Shown one piece after another: positions 1-54,205 of a stretch of 64,000 nt of DNA (its first letter is position 1; each line of letters begins with the position of its first letter). Source of the stretch: Sialis fuliginosa (lineage: Eukaryota; Arthropoda; Insecta; Megaloptera; Sialidae); assembly GCA_961205875.1 (NCBI GenBank), contig OY540809.1, positions 27,912,267-27,976,266 on the forward strand, in the 5' to 3' direction. Both the position numbers and the translations under genes were made by a program. The notes under the pieces are model-generated. The model had not been told where the DNA came from. It worked only from the letters and a program-made list of their open reading frames with translations, and made no database searches.

Positions 1-211
1 CAAAAAAGTATAATCTATCACACGTACAAAAATACACACACCCATTTTTATCTAAACTATTTTTTCGGGATACAAAGTAGCATATGTCCTTCCTCGGGAT
101 GCAAGGTACCTCCCTGCCAAATTTCATTAAGATCAGTTCAGTCGGTTAATCGTGAAAATGTTAAAAAAAACGGACAGACAGAAACTTTCTCATTTATAAT
201 ATAAGTATGGA
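1..211 (-). mobile_element. Helitron-like element, 5' end, runs off the window
   Basis: Read on the minus strand the element begins TCCATACTTATATTATAAAT, with host A just outside (212 is T on the plus strand), which fits Helitron insertion between A and T. Inside are the CTGTCTGTCCG tract and the phrase CTGCCAAATTTCATTAAGA, both typical of short insect Helitrons of the kind usually called Lep1-like. The 3' CTAG end would lie before base 1, so length and completeness are unknown. No Rep/helicase coding is visible, so it is presumably non-autonomous. The family name is from memory of similar insect repeats; the A/T junction is seen directly. Confidence 0.6.
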
Positions 212-1794
212 TTTACTTTAAATAGCATATGAATAACATCTCATTAATATTTTAACTCCAAATATAATAAATTAAATAACTCACGAATTTTTAACAAAAT
301 AGATTTCGAAAAATTCAAATTCCGTTGGTTTAAACGAGTTAAAAACATCCCAAATATGGTAACATTCATCCGTCTATCATTCATATCACAGAATTACCCC
401 TCCCACTGGTACAATATGTTATGCGTATACCGGAAACGAAGCAGAGAGAGAGAGAGGACGCGCGCGTGTCACGACAACGTCATATCCGTTCCGCCAGGGC
501 AGTAATTGTAGATGGACAATGGCTAACGAGTCCCATACTTCACGCTAAATACCATCTTTGTATTGGATTATTATGTATACTTGTTTTACGTGGGTTTTCT
601 CTATATTGTTGTTATTGTTGAGTGGAAGAAAATGTCTTGAAAAGGTTGGGAGTTTTATTCATCCAAGGTTATAAAAGAGAATTTTTCAAATTAATAGTCA
701 TTATTTATAATTATTTGAGAAATTGTATACTCCCATTATATTATACAAGAGTCATTGACGGAAGACTATGTAAGTACCTGATTTATTTTTAAGTACTTTT
801 GATTTTGTCGAATTGTATTATATTTTTAATTGAAGTTTTATTTTTCATATAAAAAGTAGTCCAGTAAAATATTTAATGCATTTAAAAAATATTTTACACA
901 ATAGGAATGATGCCAGTAACAAAGTATCACTGAAATTATGATTTTAAATAATGAAATAAGTTAAAAGATTCTAAAAAATCTATTTATTTTTATATTAATA
1001 GCGAGATTAATATGATTTTTGTTAAAATAAAAATGCAAAATACAGCAATCCGCCATGTTTGATAAAACACCAGTTAGAGTGGATGACGTCACAGCTACGT
1101 AAACGTCATTTTTGTTTCATTAATATCTGCACTGTTTATAAATTATTTTGTGGTTTTAAATTATCAATTTGCTCAGTTGTGTATTACCAAAAGTAAAACC
1201 GAGAAACATTAGCGATGGAACAAGGATTTATTATAGTTGACAAGGAGTATTTACATAGGCGTGGCGTCAAAAATTCACCATGACACTTGCGAGCGTTTTG
1301 GCGTCAAATTCAAAATTAATTTTAAAAGGGTCAATTTTTGTGATTAAACCTTTATTTTCTGCAGAAATAAGCATTTTTTTGGAAATAAGAGACACGTAAG
1401 ATCAGTATAAAATAGTTTTTAAAAATTAGGCATCATGCCTATTCATTAGTTAAAGTTGTATATTACATTACAAGGAAAGTAAGTAAGATTAACTCTATCA
1501 AACATGGTTTGAAGCCGAGCATAGCGAGGATTGTACATTATTTTTTCACTGTAGATATATGCAGGTATAAATAATTAGATCTGGAACGGAAATTCGGATA
1601 GTATTTCCGTCATTAAATAACACTCTTAGACAATGTGAAAATACAGGGGGTGGTAAAAATAAAAAATAAAATGACTACACACCTACTTTGCTTAAAAAGA
1701 TATGTTATCTGAAAACTGTGTGTCGGATCAATCTATTATCAGTTTTATTATGCCCTTAAAAACAGCTACTTTAATTTAAAAAATTCAAGTCTCA
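212..1794. other. AT-rich stretch without a recognised gene
   Basis: Mostly low-complexity AT. A CpG-containing patch at 436-540 includes a (GA)n run followed by GACGCGCGCG; it could be a promoter fragment but has no gene beside it. The 11-mer CCATGTTTGAT at 1052 recurs in inverted form near 1498, and TGGCGTCAAA occurs twice in 1262-1302, suggesting an old, decayed repeat in 1046-1545. No exon is supported. Confidence 0.4.
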
Positions 1795-1963
1795 TGCCCG
1801 GTATTAGAAAGAATATGCTTGAGTGCAAATGCAAATTTGCTCTCAGCTAATGCTATCACTAGGTATTTTTTACCACTACTTTAAAATATCGAGTAATTTC
1901 ACAACAATTGGCAGATAGCGTTAGCTGGAAGTAAAGCGTACAAATTCTTTATAATACCGGGCA
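1795..1963. mobile_element. Small hairpin MITE with TGCCCGG ends
   Basis: The two ends are inverted copies: TGCCCGGTATTA at the left and TAATACCGGGCA at the right, followed inwards by AAAGAAT and, further in, AGCTAATGCTATC against GATAGCGTTAGCT. The 3-bp word TCA lies directly outside both ends (1792-1794 and 1964-1966), a possible 3-bp target duplication as used by PIF/Harbinger-type elements, although those prefer TWA. No coding. No second copy was noticed in the window. Confidence 0.5.
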
Positions 1964-2492
1964 TCACTGTAATAAATACACAAGCATAATTTATAATTGT
2001 GATACTTCATTATACAGCAGTCACACATATACAAAATATGTAGAATCTATTATATAAAAATGTAAAAAAAAAAACAACTTAAAAAAAGCAGTGCTAAAAT
2101 ATGCAAAACTTATTTCACATGCATAAACAAGAAATCACTCAGCCTTGAAGAGTTAAAAGTAAAAGATGATCTTAAAAATGGTTACACAACGAGAATATAA
2201 TGCGGTATAAAAATTTAAAAACATGAAGGCAGAGAAGCTCACGCACGGCCGGGTACCGAAATACACTCCTGTGAGTAAAGTTGATGGATGGTACAGACAC
2301 TGTCATACGGCGTGCGTGGGGATAGATGATGCTTTGTTTTCACGTGTCTACACGCGACTGTGACGGGATGAGGTGACTTTGTGTGTACAATGGTGTATTC
2401 GGGATTACGAACGTATCTAAACTTAAAATGGAAGTTGTGTAATTAATATAACACTACTTCTACAAACGAATAAATTCACAAGACAAACAAGA
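1964..2492. other. Unassigned stretch with a GC-richer patch
   Basis: The patch at 2230-2405 is richer in GC than its surroundings. Its minus strand is open for roughly 70 codons but has no start, no recognised domain and no convincing splice pair. It may be an old exon, a regulatory region or a repeat; nothing decides between these. Confidence 0.25.
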
Positions 2493-2652
2493 GTTTTATT
2501 TTTTATTAACTGAATTGTCAATTACAATCTGTTCTATCGCGGAGAACAATAAGCAATTATGATATAGTGAAAAGGAATGGTGGCTATCGCCATTCAGTAA
2601 TGGCACACCGTATTTTTGTTAATTTAATTAGTACAAATCACTAACATATAAT

Positions 2653-3642
2653 CAGAGATGTGACTTATTTGAAATGGATTCATTTAAAATGCAAATGCAA
2701 AATACCTATTTCCATTTTCTATTTTAAATACCTGTCTCTAAAAACCATTTTTACATTTACATTTCAAATATTTGTTATATCCATTTTTCATTTTGAAAAT
2801 GCAAAATGCATTTTTATAAACAAAATGTTTAGTATCTATTGTTAATTGATCAAGTAATGTCAAACTATTTTCATGAAAATAACGTTGGTACCATATATAA
2901 GTTAGTAATTATAAAACACATACATTCACGTGTAGTTTCAAAATCATGACAGCTGTTTGTAAAGACGCGTTAAAAATATCATACGTAACAGTAATAGAGT
3001 GCGACTTACAGACAAACAACGTGTGCAAATCCAACAACTAAAATCGACGAGGCCACAGTATATATTCTATATACAACAATCGCCATTATTTACTTTTAAT
3101 ATTAAGAAAGTAAAAATATCCGTTTAATGTACATGTGTTCTGCATATAAATTAAAAACAAAATTTTTCGAAATCAAATCTATTTTTTTATTGAAAAAAAA
3201 AAACAGATAGTTCATAACTAAAGTGGTGCTAGGCAAATAACCTTGATATTAACTTTTAAATAGTATTAAAATTTTATAAACTAACAATTATCTGTAGCGT
3301 AGATAATTTTTTAAAACCCATGTATACATGGTAAAACTCTTGAAAAACAAAACTATAAAGAATTTACTAATCTGTTGATGTCAATAAATCGAGGGCTCAT
3401 TTCAATTAAACAAAAAAATTGTTATTATTATGTTTGACAGTTGTATTGAAAATTACAAAATTTGAAATAAACAATAAATAAATGAAAAGCATTTTATTTT
3501 AAAAACCATTTTGAAAATACCTATTTTGCATTTTGAAAGGTATTTTTAAAAGTCATTTTGTATTTTGCATTTGAAATAAAATGGTTAAATATTTTGCATT
3601 TTTATTTCAAAAGCATTGTGACAACCATTTTGCACGTCTCTG
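2653..3642. mobile_element. Non-autonomous hAT-like element, 990 bp, CAGAGAYGTG ends
   Basis: Ends are CAGAGATGTG (left) and CACGTCTCTG (right), an inverted pair with the YARNG-like start of hAT elements. The 8-bp word CATATAAT is present on both sides (2645-2652 and 3643-3650), a perfect hAT-type target duplication. Both terminal 150-bp zones are packed with GCATTTT / AAAATGC words, a likely subterminal transposase-binding array. The middle is AT-rich without coding. It sits in the 3' UTR of the Jockey copy and is therefore younger than it. Confidence 0.82.
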
Positions 3643-3682
3643 CATATAATGGACACATCATTGCACAGGTGTGTTACACTAG

Positions 3683-4358
3683 TTACACGAATCTATCAGG
3701 TAGGTCTAGCACATGGTGTCTTTTAAGTCTCGTGGTTGTGTCACTGTTGTCGATTAGGTTGATGGCTAATTAATTAGGGTGGTCATTGAGTCTTTTCTGG
3801 TAGTTCTGGCTGTGTTTTGTAGTAATCTCGTCGAGAACCGTTGGAATATCTAGATCTTTGTGTATATTTTCGTTTTTGATATACCACGGTGCCTCTGTTA
3901 TCAGGTGAAGTATCTTGGATTGAAACCGTTGTACAATGTCTATGTTTTAGTTATTTGCCGTTCACCAGAGCTTCTAAGGCATACGTCCGTACTGGTTTTA
4001 GGATGGACTTAAAGACCATAATTACATTTCATGGACAGTTGTGATTTTTTACTAATCAACCAGTACATCGTTTTAAGTTTGATACCTAGCTGCTTCCGCT
4101 TGGTTCATATATGTTTTCTCTATTTTATTCTGCGGTCTAGGTGCAAACCAAGATATTTGACGTGATTGTTGTGGTAGACTTTGTCCATTTAGTATCACTG
4201 GTGGGCAAGTATCTCTTCGCGTAGTGAAAGTTATGTGTGCTGACTTCGTCTTGTTTACCCTTATGTGCCATTTATTGAGCCTTTTTTGTAACCAGTTAAG
4301 GTTTTGTTTGTGTTTTTGTGATGCAATGTGTGGGGATTCGTCAGTAACAAGAATGGTT
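3683..4358 (-). pseudogene. Broken Jockey reverse transcriptase, C-terminal part
   Basis: The minus strand encodes, in pieces, the region after the RT catalytic core: motifs such as NKTKSAHITFTTRR, CPPVILNG, KYLGLHLDRR, MYWLISKKSQLS, SILKPVRTYALEAL, QRFQSKIL, APWYI and the closing LKRHHVLDLPDR occur in the order expected for Jockey-clade LINEs. The reading needs a frame change near 4150 and another near 4010. Two codons where Trp is expected (after the LHLDRR motif) are stops, consistent with G-to-A change, and a further stop lies before LAINL. Some residues between the TYALEAL and QRFQ motifs look deleted. It cannot make protein. Confidence 0.8.
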
Positions 4359-16896: not shown

Positions 16897-18139
16897 AATG
16901 AGAATAGATAAAATATAATTTTCCATCCTTACTAACTAACGTCCAAACAAAGAAATAAAGTTATGAGGACATAAGTTACTAATGGTACTTTAATAAAAAA
17001 AATAATTTTCCTAAAAGAAAACACAAAAGATTTTTTCTCACGTCTTCTGAGAAAAGTATGCTTACGTCACCAACACATATTCACCCACACGTTAGAATAA
17101 AACGTACACATGCACGTTTATTTCATTCCATGCAATGTACGATCTCAACAACAGTAACAAAAAAACATAAACATAGCAGCAGCTGTTGTTAGAATTGACA
17201 AAATTTCCGAATCGAATTTTGAATTCTTCTGGGCATACAGTCACTTCTCTTCGTATCTCAACCCTCTCAGGGAATGCTCACAACAAATCCAGGCATTAGA
17301 GTTAAAATTTTCACCCAAAAACATTTACATTTGAAAATCCCATGGCATCTTATTAACACTCTCAATACGGATTCAATGTACATCAAATCCAACTAAACGA
17401 ACTAGTTACAAACGGAAGATACAACATATGATCATAAAAACATTACAATCTTCCATACTCGCATTCAGGGAAAGTTTTTTTGAGAACTTACCGTATTCAC
17501 TGCGTTAAACAAAATATCATTTCATAACTTGAATAGATTATGAGTTTTGGCATCAAAAAACAGTGGTGTGTTTAATGTTGCTTGTTACAAAATGTCGGGG
17601 TCGCGTTACAGCAATGTTGACGGAATAATTGCATTAAGGTTGTCAGTTAGTGGGTGTAGAATTATATGAACAATAAAAAGCCATGTTAACAGCCTTTTCT
17701 CGCTCTCTTTCTGCCCATCTCTCTTTCCACTTCATTTACTCTATCTCATACTAACACACAACGCTCGTTTACGATTATCCGGAATCTTCCTCCTCCTTTG
17801 ATATCAGATCATAATGTTTACCACTTTGCCGAAAAATTATACACATTTGTCTCGAGGTTTGTGCTAAAAGATAGTATATATGTGTGTGGTATTATACTGA
17901 AATAATCGTTTTGTTTAATGTTAAATGTATGTTTATTTCTATTTTTTGCAAGTTTACTCTCAAACGCAATTAACAAGATTATTCCAGTGAAATGACTTTT
18001 ATTCGCTAGCTTTTTCAAATAAAACGTTGACAAACATAATGCATTGTATTTTATGTTTATATGAGTGTGTATATTCCCCAATGTTGTTTTAACTTGTTTG
18101 TTACTAAGTGAACAAAATAAATATATGATAAAGTATGTA
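16897..18139. other. No gene seen
   Basis: 17040-17180 and 17540-17660 are slightly GC-richer. 17695-17760 is a pyrimidine-rich run of CTCTCTTTC words. I recognise no exon or RNA. Confidence 0.35.
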
Positions 18140-19302
18140 GTCCAGTATTTTTAGATTTCAACTGCAAAAAAATAGCAGTAAGCTGAATTTTTGTATACAC
18201 CTTCGTTACGGTGTTATAAATAATGTATATAGTGCCCGCGTTCCGAGATTTTGAAGGTCTAATGTCACAAAAAACGGTTATTTGCGAATATCTCGCTTCC
18301 TATGGCTCGGAGGACAATAGGAGTTATTATATAAATTGTGTATTATTAAATTCTTAAGAAAAAATATCATTTCCATTTTATTTTAAAACAACCGTTTTCG
18401 TGGTAGAGTGCGGAGAAAGTATGGGTATACATTCGCATACGGTATAACGCATACTATGGCAATTGAGTATTTTCATATGACTATTTATATTATATAAGAT
18501 GTGTCATTCGGATATATTAAAAAATCATCTTTAATCAATTTTAATCACATTTAGTAAAACTACACACATAGCGATTTATGAAAAATTAAGGAACATAAAA
18601 TTCGGTATTATTGTACATCAAACTCTCCTCTTCAAAAACAGATGTGGCGCCACTCTCAATTCTTATTCGGTCCCATAAAAATAAAACAAAAAAGAATCGC
18701 GCAGACATCATTTTTCTTGTTATCGTCCAATATTCGTTGATTTTGACTCCCAATTACACGAAAAATATAAAATTTAGTAAAGAATAATTTATTACTTATT
18801 ATTCAAAATTTTATGGCGAATTTATTTTTTCCATTTTTTTTTTATTTGAAGGTTTGCATATCAAATAGGAGCTATCAATAGATCCTGCGGTAGCATGAAT
18901 AGAAGTTTTTGTAGCCTATAAATAGTTATAATTTTAGTGTTTAATCATATTTATAACATAAGTATGCGTTATACCGTATGCGAATGTATATCCATAATTT
19001 CTTCGCGCTCTACCACGAAAACGGTTGTTTTTAAAATAAAATGGAAATGACCTTTTTTCATAATAATTTAATAATACACAATTAATATAATAACCCCTAT
19101 TGACCTCCAAGCCATTCGCGAGATATTTGCGAATAACCGTTTTTCGTGACGTTAGACCTTCAATATCTCGTAACGCCGGCACGATATCGTTGGGGACTTT
19201 TTACACGTTATTTATAACACCGTAATGAAGGTGTATACAAAAATTCAGCTAACTGCTATTTTTTTCCCAGATTGGGTGCATTAATATCTAAAATTACTGG
19301 AC
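18140..19302. mobile_element. Family A foldback element, copy 1, 1.16 kb
   Basis: Left end GTCCAGTATTTTTAGAT and right end ATCTAAAATTACTGGAC are inverted, with TA outside both (18138-18139 and 19303-19304). About 350 bp at each side form a long imperfect inverted repeat, including GGTAGAGYGCGGAGAAAG, CGAATATCTCGCTTC and TTTGTATACACCTTCGTTAC. The centre (18592-18676) holds a phrase ending CTCAATTCTTATTCGGTCCC that is also the loop of copy 2. The arms have diverged clearly, so this is an old copy. No transposase. Confidence 0.7.
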
Positions 19303-19507
19303 TAATGAGGATTATTCAAAATTTTAGATGGTGATGTATTGCGACCATGTATTGCGTACAGCTAATTAAAACCAAGAGATGGTACATTCATCACCTGTTA
19401 AGAATTACATGATCGAATGGGAATTTGCTCTGGAGTAATCAGGGCAAGCGATGACATTCATGAGACCCATACATGTATAATTCCCAGTTTATACAATAGG
19501 ATTCTAA
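19303..19507. other. Short unassigned spacer
   Basis: Moderate-GC spacer between two inverted-repeat elements. It includes the 7-bp ATTCTAA (19501-19507) that is repeated at 20063-20069. Confidence 0.3.
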
Positions 19508-23468: not shown

Positions 23469-23600
23469 GGGTATAAAGAAGCTGTTTTTCGCACGAGTGG
23501 AAATGTTTGTTAGTCGAGGCGCCAGCCGAGACTAACTATTACACTAGTGTGAAAAACGCATTTTACATCCGAGGTGCACACAATATTTTTTCTACAACCC
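23469..23600. mobile_element. 132-bp hairpin MITE
   Basis: TA-flanked (23467-23468 and 23601-23602), with short GGGT/ACCC ends. Inner arms GTTTTTCGCACGAGTGG and CACTAGTGTGAAAAACGC mirror each other imperfectly, and the centre TAGTCGAGGCGCCAGCCGAG is itself a strong hairpin. Small enough to fold end to end. Non-coding. Confidence 0.5.
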
Positions 23601-23768
23601 TATTTATTATATAATATTAACAATAATATAATATAATAATTAATTTATATACTTTGTACTTTGCTATATTAATATTAAAATTCAACTCAAGTAAGCTTTG
23701 GACAAAATTTTTGACAGTTCCTTTTTCATTGAAATGTGTTTTATAATTAGTTAGTGTATAATATAAGA

Positions 23769-24232
23769 TGGATAAGTGGTGATACTGAAAAAGAACATAA
23801 ATGTGCGCTACTAGAGATATCAGAAGCTGCAAATTCTGTAATTTTAAATTTACTATCTGCAAAATCTAAATTGATGTATGAAAATTACACATAATACCAT
23901 GAATTGTGCCAAGAAAAAAACCTTAAGATATTGTTTATAATTTATTTAATTTTATTAATAATTTTTTTCATTACAATAATTAATATAGTGCTTAAATTTT
24001 AGTAATTTGTTGAATACTATAATACAATAGTATTTATAAATTTTATTAATCGTAAAAAAATGTAAAAATGTATGTATGTATGCGTAAAAGAAACTTTAAC
24101 GCACAGCTAGCGCAAAAGTACTACTTTACACAATGAAATGTCAATGAAAAAACCAACTTTTTTAAACGGTTGTAGAAAAAAATATTATTTGTTAGAAATA
24201 ATATCAGAATTCTTACAAGCAATTTGATATTT
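23769..24232 (-). repeat. Family C repeat, copy 2
   Basis: Inverted relative to copy 1 at 5021. Shared blocks are AGAGATATCAGAAGCTGC, ATAATACCATGAATTGTG and TTAGAAATAATATCAG. About 150 bp (24010-24165) are present here and absent from copy 1, so either this copy gained an insertion or copy 1 lost that part. Borders are uncertain. Confidence 0.6.
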
Positions 24233-24720
24233 AGATATAAAGAACTAATTTCGACGAGGGGGGTACCCGATAAAACCGAATGCCTGTTATATAATAAAGT
24301 AGGTTTTCCGAACACCTATGTTAAAAAAATGACAAATTATTTATTTTACTCGTTTGTACTTATATAGGTTCATGTTTGTAATTAAAATTAGACCTGTAAA
24401 GTTTAATTTAACAGAATTTTCATTTTATCGACGTAATTTTCAATTTCCTCCGTTCTAAATGAAAAAAATGATTACATTTTTGTCCAATATATTCGAAGTA
24501 CATTTTAATTGAATTTATAATCAAGTAAAAAAAATAAATCGGAAGAATTTCAGATCTCATACATTCAATACAAGCTACAAATAGATAGATAATATTTAAA
24601 GTTATCAAAAAATTACTAATGTGACATCTCTGTCACTTAAAACTTATAATAGAATAACCTTAATTAACCACAATAAAATAATGTCACTCAACATAACTTT
24701 AAAAAATCCCTATTAGGATA
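24233..24720. other. AT-rich stretch, nothing recognised
   Basis: No coding or paired ends. It ends exactly at the TA flanking the large palindrome. Confidence 0.35.
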
Positions 24721-25133
24721 TAGTACAGCGGTCCGATAGTGAAAAGACGTCTAGAAAAGAAAGCGTGACTAATGAAATATATACAGGCTAAGACATGGTG
24801 GAATCGATAGCTAGTACCTAGACCTACATTTTCGTGTAATTTTTTTTAAATTTGGTTGCGCAGAACTTTTTTAAATCGCAAAAAATTCTTATTTTTCATC
24901 TTAAACTCGTTGTATTTTTCCCCCTTTTGAGTTGGGCTAAAAATTTTTTGAACACGGTCTTACTTAGTTCTTATCGAAAGTAGTGGTGTAGTTTTTAAAC
25001 ATCTGATAAGGCTCAATTCGTTATAAATAAATGATTTATTAAAAAAAGTTGAAAATACGGTTAGTTTTTTTCAAATGCTTGGAGAGTCGAGGGAATTTTC
25101 AAGTTTATTCTTAAAAACTATATAACACTATTA

Positions 25134-27219
25134 GTCCAGTAATTTTAGATATAAATGTACCTAATCTGGGAAAAAAATAGCAGATAGCTGAATTTTTGTA
25201 TACACCTTCGTTACAGTGTTATAAATAACGTGTAAAAAGTCCCCAACGATATCAAGCCGGCGTTGCGAGATATTGAAGGTCTAACGTGACGAAAAACGGT
25301 TATTCGCGAATATCTTGCTTCCTATGACTCGGAGGTCATTAAGGATTATTATATAAACGGTGTATTATTAAGTTCTTAAGAAAAAAGGCTCTTTCCATTT
25401 TTTTTTTAAAAACAACCGTTCTCGTGGTAGAGCGCGGAGAAAGTATGGCTATATATTTGCATACGGTATGACGCACTCTATGGCAATTGACTATTTGCAT
25501 ATGACTATTCTAAGTGAAAAAATTACAGGACAAAAATTAAAGAGTAGCAAATAATCTATAAGGTGTGTCATTCGGATATATTAAAAAAATAATTTAATCA
25601 ATTTTAATCACATTTAGTAGAACTGCAAACATAGCGATTTATGAAAAATTACCATTTTTGTTCAATTTTGTGTTCAAAATCTACACCTAAGCTTTTGTAA
25701 AGTTATTTAATGGTTCTACTAAAATAAGCTTTGGACATATTGAGTAGAAAAGAGAGAAAAAATGTGTTAAATTGACCTGCATTTAACAATAGGTACGTCA
25801 AAAATTAAAAAATCGAAAAAAAAATTATTTTATTATAAAATGCACCCTTTTTAAAGTTGTATGTGTACTTATGTTATAAATATGACTAAATAGTAAAATT
25901 ATAAATATTTTTAGGCTAAAAACATGTTTTTTATTATTTTTTTGCTAGAAAAACTTCTATTCATATTACCGCAGGGTCTCTTGATAGCTCCTATTTCATA
26001 TGCAAACCATCAAATTAAAAAAAAATTAAAAAAATAGATTTGCCATTAAATTTTGAATAATAAACAATAAATTATTTTTTAGTAAATTTTATATTTTCCG
26101 TGTAATGGGAAGCCAAAATCAACGAATACTGGACGAAAACAAGAAAATTGGTGTCCGCACGATTCTTTTTTTGTTTTATAAAATAAGGATTGCATCGAGA
26201 TAGGAACATGAAATTCGGTATTATTGTACATCAAACTCTCCTCTTCAAAAACAGATGTGTCGCCACTCTCAATTCTTATTCGGTCCCAGTTTTATAAAAC
26301 AAAAAAGAATCGCACGGACACCAATTTTCTTGTTATCGTCCAATATTCGTTGATTTTGGCTTCCCATTACACGGAAAATATAAAATTTAGTAAAAAATAA
26401 TTTATTGTTTATTATTCAAAATTTAATGGCAAATCTATTTTTTTAATTTTTTTTTAATTTGATGGTTTGCATATGAAATAGGAGCTATCAAGAGACCCTG
26501 CGGTAATATGAATAGAAGTTTTTCAAGCAAAAAAATAATAAAAAACATGTTTTTAGCCTAAAAATATTTATAATTTTACTATTTAGTCATATTTATAACA
26601 TAAGTACACATACAACTTTAAAAAGGGTGCATTTTATAATAAAATAATTTTTTTTTCGATTTTTTAATTTTTGACGTACCTATTGTTAAATGCAGGTCAA
26701 TTTAACACATTTTTTCTCTCTTTTCTACTCAATATGTCCAAAGCTTATTTTAGTAGAACCATTAAATAACTTTACAAAAGCTTAGGTGTAGATTTTGAAC
26801 ACAAAATTGAACAAAAATGGTAATTTTTCATAAATCGCTATGTTTGCAGTTCTACTAAATGTGATTAAAATTGATTAAATTATTTTTTTAATATATCCGA
26901 ATGACACACCTTATAGATTATTTGCTACTCTTTAATTTTTGTCCTGTAATTTTTTCACTTAGAATAGTCATATGCAAATAGTCAATTGCCATAGAGTGCG
27001 TCATACCGTATGCAAATATATAGCCATACTTTCTCCGCGCTCTACCACGAGAACGGTTGTTTTTAAAAAAAAAATGGAAAGAGCCTTTTTTCTTAAGAAC
27101 TTAATAATACACCGTTTATATAATAATCCTTAATGACCTCCGAGTCATAGGAAGCAAGATATTCGCGAATAACCGTTTTTCGTCACGTTAGACCTTCAAT
27201 ATCTCGCAACGCCGGCTTG
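25134..27219. mobile_element. Family A foldback element, copy 2, truncated, near-perfect arms
   Basis: Begins GTCCAGTAATTTTAGATAT after TA, as copy 1 does. The arms 25253-26183 and 26290-27219 (about 930 bp each) show hardly a mismatch, whereas the arms of copy 1 differ at many sites. The 106-bp loop matches the centre of copy 1. The right end stops at CCGGCTTG instead of running on to CTGGAC, so the last 85 bp or so are missing. The arms also contain about 350 bp absent from copy 1 (around 25655-25930). Mirror-image ORFs inside follow from the symmetry. Confidence 0.7.
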
Positions 27220-27749
27220 TAGGGCGTTTTTGAATTAAAATGATCTTGTTTTTGCATAAAGTGCATATGTCAATATAAAAATGACCTATAAATATATAAT
27301 ATAACAATATAACAAGATAATTAATAAAATACAAGAAAACACTCGAATAAAACAAAAACAAAAAAAACAATCCAATATTTTTTTTGGGAATTTAGTAAGT
27401 TTATATATGAACATTAAAATAAAAATAAAATTACACTGAAAATACGGGATCTTCTACCCCAAAAATGGGTCTAATGGTAAAAAAACGAGTTTTTTTAAAA
27501 TATCTCCGAAAGTTTTATTGGTACGTAAAATTTTTTTGGGGCATTAGCTCCACTCTTTTCAGTTTTATTATTTTTTTTAAATTTCTTCAAATTAGATGTG
27601 TTTTGTCCAGCAAGCGCCGAGATTACGCCCGTACTAAACGTACCGCGCCGCATCGCACGGCGTTCCATATTTTAAAACGCTTGCCATTTCTTTTGTACTG
27701 CTCAAAAAAATCTAATTTTTCAGAGAAAACTTTATCAACTAATACTTCA
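27220..27749. other. Unpaired loop segment of the outer foldback
   Basis: About 530 bp with no mirror on the left side. Mostly AT, but 27600-27670 is GC-richer (AAGCGCCGAGATTACGCC and CGTACCGCGCCGCATCGCAC). The 95-codon ORF across it (27465-27752) runs into the arm and has no recognisable wording. Probably the original central spacer of family H, or captured host DNA. Confidence 0.4.
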
Positions 27750-28165
27750 TAGTGTTATATAGTTTTTAAGAATAAACTTGAAAATTCCCTCGACTCTCCA
27801 AGCATTTGAAAAAAACTAACCGTATTTTCAACTTTTTTTAATAAATCATTTATTTATAACGAATTGAGCCTTATCAGATGTTTAAAAACTACACCACTAC
27901 TTTCGATAAGAACTAAGTAAGACCGTGTTCAAAAAATTTTTAGCCCAACTCAAAAGGGGGAAAAAATACAACGAGTTTAAGATGAAAAATAAGAATTTTT
28001 TGCGATTTAAAAAAGTTCTACGCAACCAAATTTTAAAAAAATTACACGAAAATGTAGGTCTAGGTACTAGCTATCGATTCCACCATGTCTTAGCCTGTAT
28101 ATATTTCATTAGTCACGCTTTCTTTTCTAGACGTTTTTTCACTATCGGACCGCTGTACTATCACT

Positions 28166-28790
28166 AAAACCGATAGTGTTTAGATAAATTGCCTGGCATT
28201 GGTTAACGATTTAATTTTTATACAAATTTTACTAAAAAATCTTTGTAAGGGAATATTTTACAACAAACGTAGTAGACCCATATTATAGGAAATTTAATGC
28301 TCTACAAAAAATATTCTATAAAATTTTGGTTAACCATTTAATTTTTATACAAATTTTACTAAAAAATCTTTGTAAGGGAATATTTTACAACAAACGTAGT
28401 AGACCCATATTATAGGAAATTTAATGCTCTACAAAAAATATTCTATAAAATTTTCTCGTAACATTTGTCGTTCTTGAGATATTTTGAAAAAATAAATATT
28501 TTGGGGTGTCACCCCTCCCCCTTACACACGATTTTGATAATTTTGAAATGGGACCGTCCTCAAGCCAGATCCAACCATACGACCAAGTTTCAATAATAAT
28601 GGTTCAGTGGTTCATGAGTTACAAGGATTCAGGGGACAGACACACGGACGGACGGTCAAACAGACAGATACGGAACAAAAAGTATTTGTCTTGACGTGAA
28701 ACGGAAAGATCAATTAAAAATTGTGAAATCGGAGAACATTTTTTTTGTGTCAATCTAAAACGATCACAAAGCTTCTCGTATCTTCGATAT
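28166..28790 (+). mobile_element. Family B element, copy 2, 5'-truncated
   Basis: Starts abruptly at GATAGTGTTTAGATAAATTG, about 60 bp into the family consensus, directly next to the tip of the large foldback. It then follows the family to CTTCTCGTATCTTCGATATTG. Contains the CACGGACGGACGG tract and the AAATTTAATGCTCTACAAA module, the latter twice because of a tandem duplication. The terminal GCGAGGAAGC is replaced by GTATTCCAAGC. Confidence 0.65.
28201..28454 (+). repeat. 127-bp tandem duplication inside family B
   Basis: Units 28201-28327 and 28328-28454 differ at a single base in my reading (GGTTAACGATT against GGTTAACCATT). Other B copies have this segment once, so the duplication is specific to this copy and young. 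Confidence 0.85.
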
Positions 28791-28929
28791 TGTATTCCAA
28801 GCAAATGGAACATCCCCTTTCACGTAAAAAACTACCCCCGGAATAAAATTTATTCCAGTTTTTCCCATTTTTCATCCGAACCGCTGTTCGGAGGAAAAAA
28901 TACTACAGGAATTAAAGATTCTACATAAA
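28791..28929. other. Spacer between two family B copies
   Basis: Includes CCCGGAATAAAATTTATTCC and CGAACCGCTGTTCGG, two small palindromes. No coding. Confidence 0.35.
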
Positions 28930-29201
28930 ATTTTGAAATGGGACCGTCCTCAAACCAAACCCAACCATCCGACCAAGTTTCAATAATATCGGTTCAGTGG
29001 TTCATGAGTTATGCGTGTGACAAGGATTCAGGGGACAGACGGACGGACGGACACACGGACACACGGACACACGGAACGAAAAGTGTTTGTCTTGACGTGA
29101 AACGGATAAATCAATTTAAAATTTTGAAATTGGAGAACTTTTTTTTTGTCTCAATCTGAAACGATCACATAGCTTCTCGTATCTTCGATATTGCGAGGAA
29201 G
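28930..29201 (+). mobile_element. Family B element, copy 3 (3' third)
   Basis: Begins at AAATTTTGAAATGGGACCG and ends CTTCTCGTATCTTCGATATT then GCGAGGAAG, the family 3' terminus. It has the longest (ACGG)n/(ACAC)-type tract, 29028-29075. Same orientation as copy 2 and 140 bp after it. Confidence 0.65.
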
Positions 29202-29260
29202 AAAAATTGTTTTAATATACCTAGTCACTGCAACATATATAACGAAACATAAATTTATCA

Positions 29261-29632
29261 TCCTTAGATATTATAAAACGCAACGTCTATTTGTCTGTCT
29301 GTTCGTTTGTGCGCTTATCACTCGAGAACTACATATCCGATTTACGTGTTTTTTTTATTTTTTATTTATAGATATGTTATTTGCTTAGGTTGTAGTATAT
29401 ATTTTGTTACGGAAGGTAACATAAGGAATAAGCAGTGACGATAATAGTAAATCAAGTCGTAAAAAAGTTTGTCGCCAGCGCGCTATTTTGCAATACGCGG
29501 TCTAAACAGTTAAATATTGAACAATATAATGTAGTAAAGAATTGTGTAAAATAAAAAAGATCTAAAATAAATTCCGTGGGACCATGTATCTAACATTTAT
29601 AATGAAGCGAGCGAAGCCGCGGGCTCAGCTAG
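29261..29632 (+). mobile_element. Short Helitron-like element with both ends, 372 bp
   Basis: Starts TCCTTAGATATTATAAAACG after host A (29260) and ends GCGGGCTCAGCTAG before host T (29633): TC start, CTAG end, A/T target, as in Helitrons. A GC-rich block with hairpin potential (GCGAGCGAAGCCGCGGGC) precedes the end. Next to the start are TTTGTCTGTCTGTTCG and ATCACTCGAGAACTACATAT. Related to 48689-49010 and, on the other strand, 54605-54918. Non-coding. Confidence 0.72.
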
Positions 29633-52574: not shown

Positions 52575-52576
52575 TA

Positions 52577-53874
52577 GCCCAATCATTTTAGATTTTTTCA
52601 CGAAAAAAATTGCCTAGTCGAAACTTTTGACGCAGTTGTGTGTTCCAGGCAGAGTAGATGATGAAATCACATTCTTGCCCATAAATTAGTTACCGGAAGT
52701 GTCCGCCATCTTGGATTTTGTATTTTTGTCGATTTGAACTCGTATTTAGCATTTCTCGATAAAAAGATTAGTAACAATTTTATAGAGAATTTAATTCTCT
52801 ACAATCTTTATAGAATCAATATTGTTGAAAAAACATTATTTATTGCTAATAATAAACAAAAACTGTTGAAAATTAGAAGAGTGGTGCAGTTTTTTCAACT
52901 TTTATACCATTTTTATTGAAAATAAGTGGCACATTTAAATGACAAAGTTGTAGAGGACTCAATTCCCAACCGCTTTTGTACAAACAAGTTTTTCGTACGA
53001 CGTGTAGATGACGGTCGAGAACGCGCTCAACACAGCTACGATTTTGTTTGGTTGAGTCTGAATATGGATTGTTTTTCAGAAAAAAATAAATCATTTGGCA
53101 ACACTGTCACTGAATAAAAAAATTAATAGACGTTAATGTAGAGGTTAAAAAATGACATTGGAAGACTTAAAACATTATAGGGTGTTCCATTTAAAATTTT
53201 GTTTGTTTTTGTTATAGGACAATAATGGAACACCCTGTATTGTTGAAAATAATTTTACGACGTTGATCTTTTCGAACCAATAATATTATGTACTAAACTT
53301 TTTTTTCTATCTCCTACAGGTAGTGCGCTAAGAAAGCCAGACACACTATTGAACTATCGTGTATTGAACTGTATTGTTTTCAACAGCGCGATTTTCCCCA
53401 TACCGCTGTGTTGAGCGCGTTCTCGGCCGTCATCTACACGTCGTACGAAAAACTTGTTTGTACAAAAGCTGTTGGGAATTGAGTCCTCTACAACTTTGTC
53501 ATTTAAATGTGCCACTTATTTTCAATAAAAATGGTATAAAAGTTGAAAAAACTGCACCACTTTTCTAATTTTTAACAGTTTTTGTTTATTATTAGCAATA
53601 AATAATGTTTTTTCAACAATATTGATTCTATAAATATTGTAGAGAATTAAATTCTCTATAAAATTGTTATTAATCTTTTTATCGAGAAATGCTAAATACG
53701 CGTTCAAATCGACAAAAATACAAAATCCAAGATGGCGGACACTTCCGGTAACTAATTTATGGGCAAGAATGTGATTTCATCATCTACTCTGCCTGGGACA
53801 CACAACTGCGTCAAAAGTTTCGACTAGGCAGTTTTTTTGCATCTTACATCGAATTTGATCTAAAATGATCGGGC
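52577..53874. mobile_element. 1.3-kb foldback element with 460-470-bp arms
   Basis: Tips GCCCAATCATTTTAGAT and ATCTAAAATGATCGGGC, TA-flanked (52575-52576 and 53875-53876). Arms 52577-53036 and 53405-53874 are well matched, with only a few differences and small indels. The arms contain a GAATTTAATTCTCTACAA module resembling one in family B. The four ORFs of about 60-70 codons here come in mirrored pairs and are the same arm read from both sides. The loop 53037-53404 holds a separate 60-bp MITE. No transposase. Confidence 0.75.
53178..53237. mobile_element. 60-bp MITE in the foldback loop
   Basis: TAGGGTGTTCCATT and AATGGAACACCCTG ends, TA-flanked (53176-53177 and 53238-53239). TACAGGGTGTTCCATT is a familiar end motif of insect Tc1/mariner-type MITEs. 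Only about 32 bp separate the arms. Confidence 0.6.
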
Positions 53875-54205
53875 TAATTGTTATTTTAATATTAAGGAAT
53901 AATAAAAATAATAACAACTATTTGTTGATTAATAACAAATAACAAATTCATGACCGGATAACAGTACACGTTATCAAATCAAAATATTAAATTATATGTA
54001 GCTGTCATCGGGAATAAACGAGTCGCGTATGCGCAACAAAAAGAAATACTGGACGTTGCCAAATTTTATTTTATTTTATACCAAGGTAATCTTGATTTTA
54101 TACTACACTTTTTTCTCTTTTTCTAACACTTAGCGAACCTTGTTTCTTTCCGAGAAATACCTAAAAAAGGAAGTCTTCAAGCTATTGAAAAAAAAGTGTC
54201 TTTTA
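53875..54205. other. AT-rich spacer
   Basis: Nothing recognised. Confidence 0.35.

Follow-up and report, generated by a model that had tools for sequence, protein, structure and literature searches.

The 3.44-kb palindromic unit found in the 64,000-nucleotide stretch of DNA analysed here (the window) very probably arose when one non-autonomous, palindromic cut-and-paste DNA transposon, A, inserted into another, H, and a single deletion followed. No new biology is required: two transposon families, one insertion and one deletion are enough to explain the entire structure, and such nesting is ordinary.

Organization of the nested unit

Self-comparison of the window detected two nested inverted repeats at the place where a sequence-only reading of this DNA had reported them. 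The inner arms (25253–26176 and 26296–27219) are 924 nt each, 99% complementary and separated by a gap of 119 nt. The outer arms (approximately 24721–25131 and 27749–28160) contain a one-base indel, at which the self-comparison split them into two overlapping matches; in BLAST they matched at 99.0% over 413 columns. The arms differ from each other at 8 of 924 positions in A and by three substitutions and a 1-nt indel in H. A chance origin is of no concern for arms of hundreds of bases that have further copies at other genomic sites. The features of the unit and its surroundings are as follows.

24721–25131, plus strand: H left arm, outer part, from tip TAGTACAGCGG to the A insertion point; equals intact H 1–437 minus 25 nt
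25129–25131, plus strand: TAT, putative A target site, its right-hand copy lost; intact H has AACACTATGAAG
25132–27219, plus strand: element A, left tip TAGTCCAGTAATTTTAGAT complete, last 111 nt missing at right
25132–25252, plus strand: A left tip and outer arm, partner deleted (first unmatched segment)
25253–26176, plus strand: A left core arm
26177–26295, no strand: A loop, 119 nt (second unmatched segment)
26296–27219, minus strand: A right core arm
27217–27219, no strand: TTG microhomology at the deletion junction (A GGCTTG, H ATTTG)
27220–27276, no strand: H loop, retained
27277–27748, minus strand: H right arm, inner part, left partner deleted; together with the H loop, the third unmatched segment
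27749–28160, minus strand: H right arm, outer part, ending in tip CCGCTGTACTA
28161–29632, plus strand: Helitron-like element adjoining the last H base; putative 5′ end, 3′ end GCGAAGCCGCGGGCTCAGCTAG then T
18138–19304, minus strand: second A copy, internally deleted, ATG at each side

The predicted RNA fold of 24721–28160 had an energy of −2297 kcal/mol with 89% of bases paired, compared to −672 kcal/mol for one mononucleotide shuffle. It contained 409 outer and 917 inner arm pairs, or about 2.65 of 3.44 kb, which agrees with the earlier estimate that about 2.7 of 3.4 kb can pair with itself.

Families H and A in the genome

The genome searched comprised 392 Mb in 20 contigs, a size beyond that of prokaryotes, and its transposons look insect-like. 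Intact H is approximately 1.86 kb long (arms ~900 nt, loop ~57 nt) and intact A approximately 2.2 kb (arms ~1,040 nt, loop 119 nt). Thus, the arms of the unit exist as originally described, but those visible are remnants of longer palindromes. Exact tips numbered 32 for H and 372 for A. The best 40 outer-arm matches were spread over ten contigs and often formed inverted pairs about 1.86 kb apart; only the two known arms among these 40 fell in the window, as expected from the claim that H has no other copy there. Inner-arm matches likewise often formed inverted pairs, with a spacing of about 2.2 kb. The claim that the inner element has another copy near 18140 was also borne out, this copy being mapped to 18138–19304.

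Copies were picked as best window matches or by exact window tips, so that close relatives are over-represented among those described here. Full-length self-complementarity was observed in 10 of 16 H copies (93.4–98.1%) and in 21 of 22 A copies (89.9–95.6%), with indels in the remainder. Matching 3-bp target duplications flanked all 23 distinct A tip pairs and 12 of 17 H tip pairs, the exceptions being L032, L035, L037, L039 and the window copy. TTA or TAA made up 18 of the 35 matching duplications, and others included CCC, AAG, ATG and TCA. Target duplications of Harbinger elements are TWA, which these other triplets do not fit. The termini of both elements are TAG...CTA. Although the arm sequences of H and A differ, in line with their description as unrelated repeats, a tip grammar of TAGTNCAG and 3-bp duplications are common to both, implying that the two elements were possibly moved by related enzymes.

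The two ends of A differ from each other some 20–40 bases in, one carrying ATAAATGTACC and the other TTCAACTGCG, with small variants, in 22 of 22 printed copies, while the neighbouring arm sequences match. Judged by sequence, these could possibly be distinct transposase-binding ends. In addition, a third inverted-repeat element was observed at 52575–53876 of the window, with a similar tip (TAGCCCAATCATTTTAGAT), ATT on both sides and arms of 434 nt that are 98% complementary.

Origin of the unit

The unit could be tiled with copies from elsewhere in the genome. H copies L021 and L022 align to 24721–25131 and 27217–28160, four more H copies align to the window from 27277 onward, and A copies L011, L014 and L017 align to 25132–27219. 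Compared to intact copies, the order in the window is H 1–437 (minus 25 nt), A short of its final 111 nt, and H from loop to right tip. H, a palindrome of about 1.86 kb, would have been resident first, and A, a palindrome of about 2.2 kb, would then have inserted behind TAT in the left arm of H; this triplet is the probable A target because intact H has AACACTATGAAG where A entered. At the right-hand junction (GGCTTGTAGGG in the window), A GGCTTG and H ATTTG have TTG in common, and the deletion breakpoint in H is the base of its loop. Both the end of A and the inner part of the H left arm are missing, and one deletion therefore suffices for both. Such a deletion, of about 575 bp and via the 3-nt microhomology, would have taken the right end of A, the right-hand duplication and the inner half of the H left arm; that the loss was a single event we infer from one assembled copy.

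The same pieces could also have been put in place in another order, with the stretch lost during the arrival of A, or in an abortive excision of A, and not in a later deletion. The missing stretch starts inside A and includes its right tip, and H is broken at the loop base, as a structure-driven event might give; the 3-nt microhomology, however, fits ordinary end joining too, and we regard this order as possible but somewhat unlikely.

Long palindromes are typical sites of fold-back assembly errors, and the unit might accordingly represent a single strand that was sequenced forth and back and fused with itself. Nevertheless, H and A are palindromic at other loci too, where their flanks differ and their duplications match, the sequences flanking the unit on its two sides differ, and the arms are not identical, differing at 8 of 924 positions in A and at four places in H. 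The earlier argument that unmatched segments speak against a simple artefact also held: each of the three corresponds to a stretch present in intact H or A, and all are accounted for by insertion and one deletion. A fold-back artefact is therefore very unlikely.

The 3.4-kb structure had been called a unit, but it is not a recurring one: its right-hand H/A junction has only one occurrence in the genome. This single occurrence bears on two further explanations. In one, the nested palindrome would be a dedicated hairpin-RNA locus, kept for the production of double-stranded RNA and small RNAs, and the predicted transcript does fold almost wholly. Yet, besides the unique junction, the components are ordinary repeats and no match in the window attained the gathering score of an Rfam family (nor was a tRNA detected there), and such a role seems very unlikely, although some hairpin RNA may be produced. 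In the other, the H tips would now mobilize the whole 3.44-kb unit including A as a composite element. The sequence of both H tips is intact, but with one genomic copy of the junction and no matching duplication around the unit, we consider this explanation extremely improbable. Nested insertion of A into H followed by a deletion remains the preferred explanation.

Faster decay of the segment that had lost its partner was considered but not supported. Segment 27220–27748 differs from L021 at 8 of 520 positions, compared to 1 of 411 and 2 of 412 for the outer arms, but the same bias is present between L021 and L022 (15/518 versus 4/437).

A Helitron-like neighbour and the absent H duplication

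The window H lacks a matching duplication, with ATA on its left and TCA on its right. Approximately 86 bases immediately after H recur widely in the genome: 38 of the 42 non-window matches listed start within six bases of that point, and these are confined to the right flank. The sequence that begins there has a 3′ end at 29632, GCGAAGCCGCGGGCTCAGCTAG followed by T, which we take to be Helitron-like from its motif. Beyond it lies TTA, which matches the ATA left of H at two of three bases. Insertion of a Helitron-like element at the edge of H, with a putative 5′ boundary at 28161, would account for the missing H duplication. Five other loci with the same start bases all have one common flank upstream of those bases, and the Helitron-like 3′ end was not found in the approximately 1.7 kb examined at each of them; the bases after H may thus belong to a larger repeat. 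Within 28161–29632, 127-bp tandem copies were observed near the start, along with a repeated unit of about 400 bp with GGACAGACGGACGG-like runs. In a genome search for the empty H site, the joined flanks matched no locus holding both sides among the matches listed.

Coding capacity and candidate partners

Thirteen open frames of at least 50 aa overlap the unit, and the six tested matched no Pfam family above the cut-off. It is likeliest that H and A are passive non-autonomous transposons moved by partners, and a transposase supplied in trans would have moved both. No partner with H or A tips was found at the loci examined. A 12.1-kb pair of H tips on contig C11 was rejected as an autonomous partner, as it is really one H copy split by three insertions: at L062–L063 (G000:C11:1719300-1732700), four pieces of this copy extend over 12.1 kb, bounded by ATA at either end. 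Two further candidates, the tip-only H at L064 and a 6-kb A pair at L066, were rejected as interrupted copies.

The Harbinger transposase domain PF13359 had 146 matches in the genome. Many of these lie on contig C14, and the same open frame of 173 to 174 aa is present in many. At the three Harbinger-type loci inspected (L069–L071), no H- or A-like tip pair was present around the transposase gene. The ISAzo13-like transposase domain of Zator (PF07592) had no match in the genome, and control genomes were equally silent.

One of these loci, L071, contains a different, Harbinger-type element in the form of a palindrome of about 4.2 kb (50–4262 of the locus, G000:C2:25063700-25068900). Its arms of about 2.1 kb match in pieces of 98–100% around an 11-nt centre, each arm has a 174-aa open frame matching DDE_Tnp_4, and part of a third copy follows. 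From its sequence, the centre resembles a tip-to-tip junction of two element ends.

Relationship to known elements

In the parts of the cited reports that we drew on, the closest parallels to H and A are the foldback-like elements Galileo (PMC4168063), Tetris (PMC4079207) and Tm1 (PMC3169594), long-inverted-repeat DNA transposons with many rearranged or non-coding copies. Inverted repeats constitute most of H and A, as in foldback-like elements, and both have the inverted tips and the target duplications of fixed length that define cut-and-paste transposons. Insertion of other elements in the repeats of Galileo has been reported (PMC4168063). In these same parts, target duplications are given as 7 or 8 bp for Galileo (PMC4168063) and 9 bp for Tm1 (PMC3169594), compared to 3 bp for H and A. 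Tetris repeats hold tandem units of about 220 bp (PMC4079207) and Tm1 repeats are composite (PMC3169594), and neither feature was found in the H and A arms: a direct-repeat search of 23500–29500 gave only weak two-copy matches within the arms.

H and A also resemble insect MITEs in the sections of the iMITEdb report used here, in that they are non-coding, have inverted repeats and reach a high copy number (PMC5199201). That database drops consensus sequences longer than 800 bp, a limit exceeded by both H (1.86 kb) and A (2.2 kb). Duplications of 3 bp are described in the consulted sections for PIF/Harbinger, Chapaev3, Zator and Academ (PMC4079192, PMC10045372, PMC5199201). Academ is a 3-bp duplication class among insect MITEs, and duplication length is the only feature of it that fits H and A (PMC5199201); Zator has the same length in common with them (PMC10045372). 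Chapaev termini are CAC...GTG, as against TAG...CTA here, and Chapaev3 duplications are TWA, whereas only the 18 of 35 noted above are of this type in H and A (PMC4079192, as far as the sections used describe these groups).

Other systems of inverted repeats are more distant. Caenorhabditis maintains long inverted repeats of gene pairs (PMC1803023), and bacterial insertion sequences undergo inversion between their terminal repeats (PMC3004938). Insofar as the portions used of these two papers describe them, these systems have in common with H and A an inverted structure that is kept amid change and recombination between inverted ends; however, they concern nematode gene pairs and bacterial insertion sequences, and H and A are dispersed palindromic transposons (PMC1803023, PMC3004938). 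In the part of the literature on related elements that was covered, we met no description of a nested pair like that of H and A.

Exchange of sequence between arms

The pattern of shared changes indicates that the arms of one copy sometimes, not constantly, exchange sequence. A 25-nt deletion is present in both H arms of the window and in none of 46 other aligned H arms, including those of the nearest relative, L021, which is 99.6% identical to the window H in aligned bases. In L038, a loss of about 19 nt is present in both arms; it also occurs in the single aligned arm of L044 (3 of 48 arms in all), and since L044 has the same loss, the two-arm exchange in L038 may be old.

Across 21 A copies, 49 private substitutions were present in both arms of a single copy and 124 in one arm only; across 15 H copies, the numbers were 15 and 65. 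Single-arm changes were the more frequent in both families. On trees, the two arms were sisters in 7 of 21 A copies (mean 0.42 and maximum 3 in a re-paired control) and in 10 of 15 H copies (mean 0.80, maximum 5); they were not sisters in the other 14 A and five H copies. Mean identity was 97.4% within and 96.1% between copies for A, and 98.7% and 97.6% for H. The two arms resembled each other more than they resembled any other copy in only 8 A copies out of 21 and 9 H copies out of 15. The window H is not among these, its own arms being 99.3% identical and the nearest copy closer at 99.6%. A longest-run test gave p<0.05 in 9 of 21 A and 3 of 15 H copies (p=0.16 for the window H).

These counts are subject to several omissions. 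For A, they leave out L050 and L060, which have large indels, L054 and L058, in which no tip pair was detected, and L018 and L019, which are duplicates of L017 and L012. Loop figures for L048 and for the inverted loop of L055 are excluded. For H, they leave out L029 and L041 (deleted), L065 (a later addition), L062–L064 (interrupted) and the one-tip loci L030, L033, L034, L036, L040, L042, L043 and L044; these H loci do figure among the 48 aligned arms, unless the arm is missing.

The A arms of the window are identical over their first 694 nt, with the mismatches near the loop. This clustering need not reflect conversion, because near the loop the arms differ in many copies (nine columns in at least 40% of copies). 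In L055 (G000:C14:115800-119100), an A copy whose core arms are 99.6% identical, the loop is inverted relative to the tips, the outcome expected from recombination between arms; this was the case in 1 of 21 A copies.

Gene conversion or snap-back repair would be the route of such copying. A broader proposal is that different transposons (H, A and the unrelated Harbinger-type element, which has a transposase fragment in each arm) repeatedly became near-complete palindromes in this genome and were kept so by a shared snap-back or inverted-dimer mechanism, which we regard as rather doubtful; the element at 52575–53876, whose tips are similar, likewise has long arms. If this were true, each arm would be the repair template of the other, and a non-coding element would be preserved by self-correction. 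Dispersed kilobase palindromes of one genome allow arm copying to be measured copy by copy, which bears on the persistence of long palindromes.
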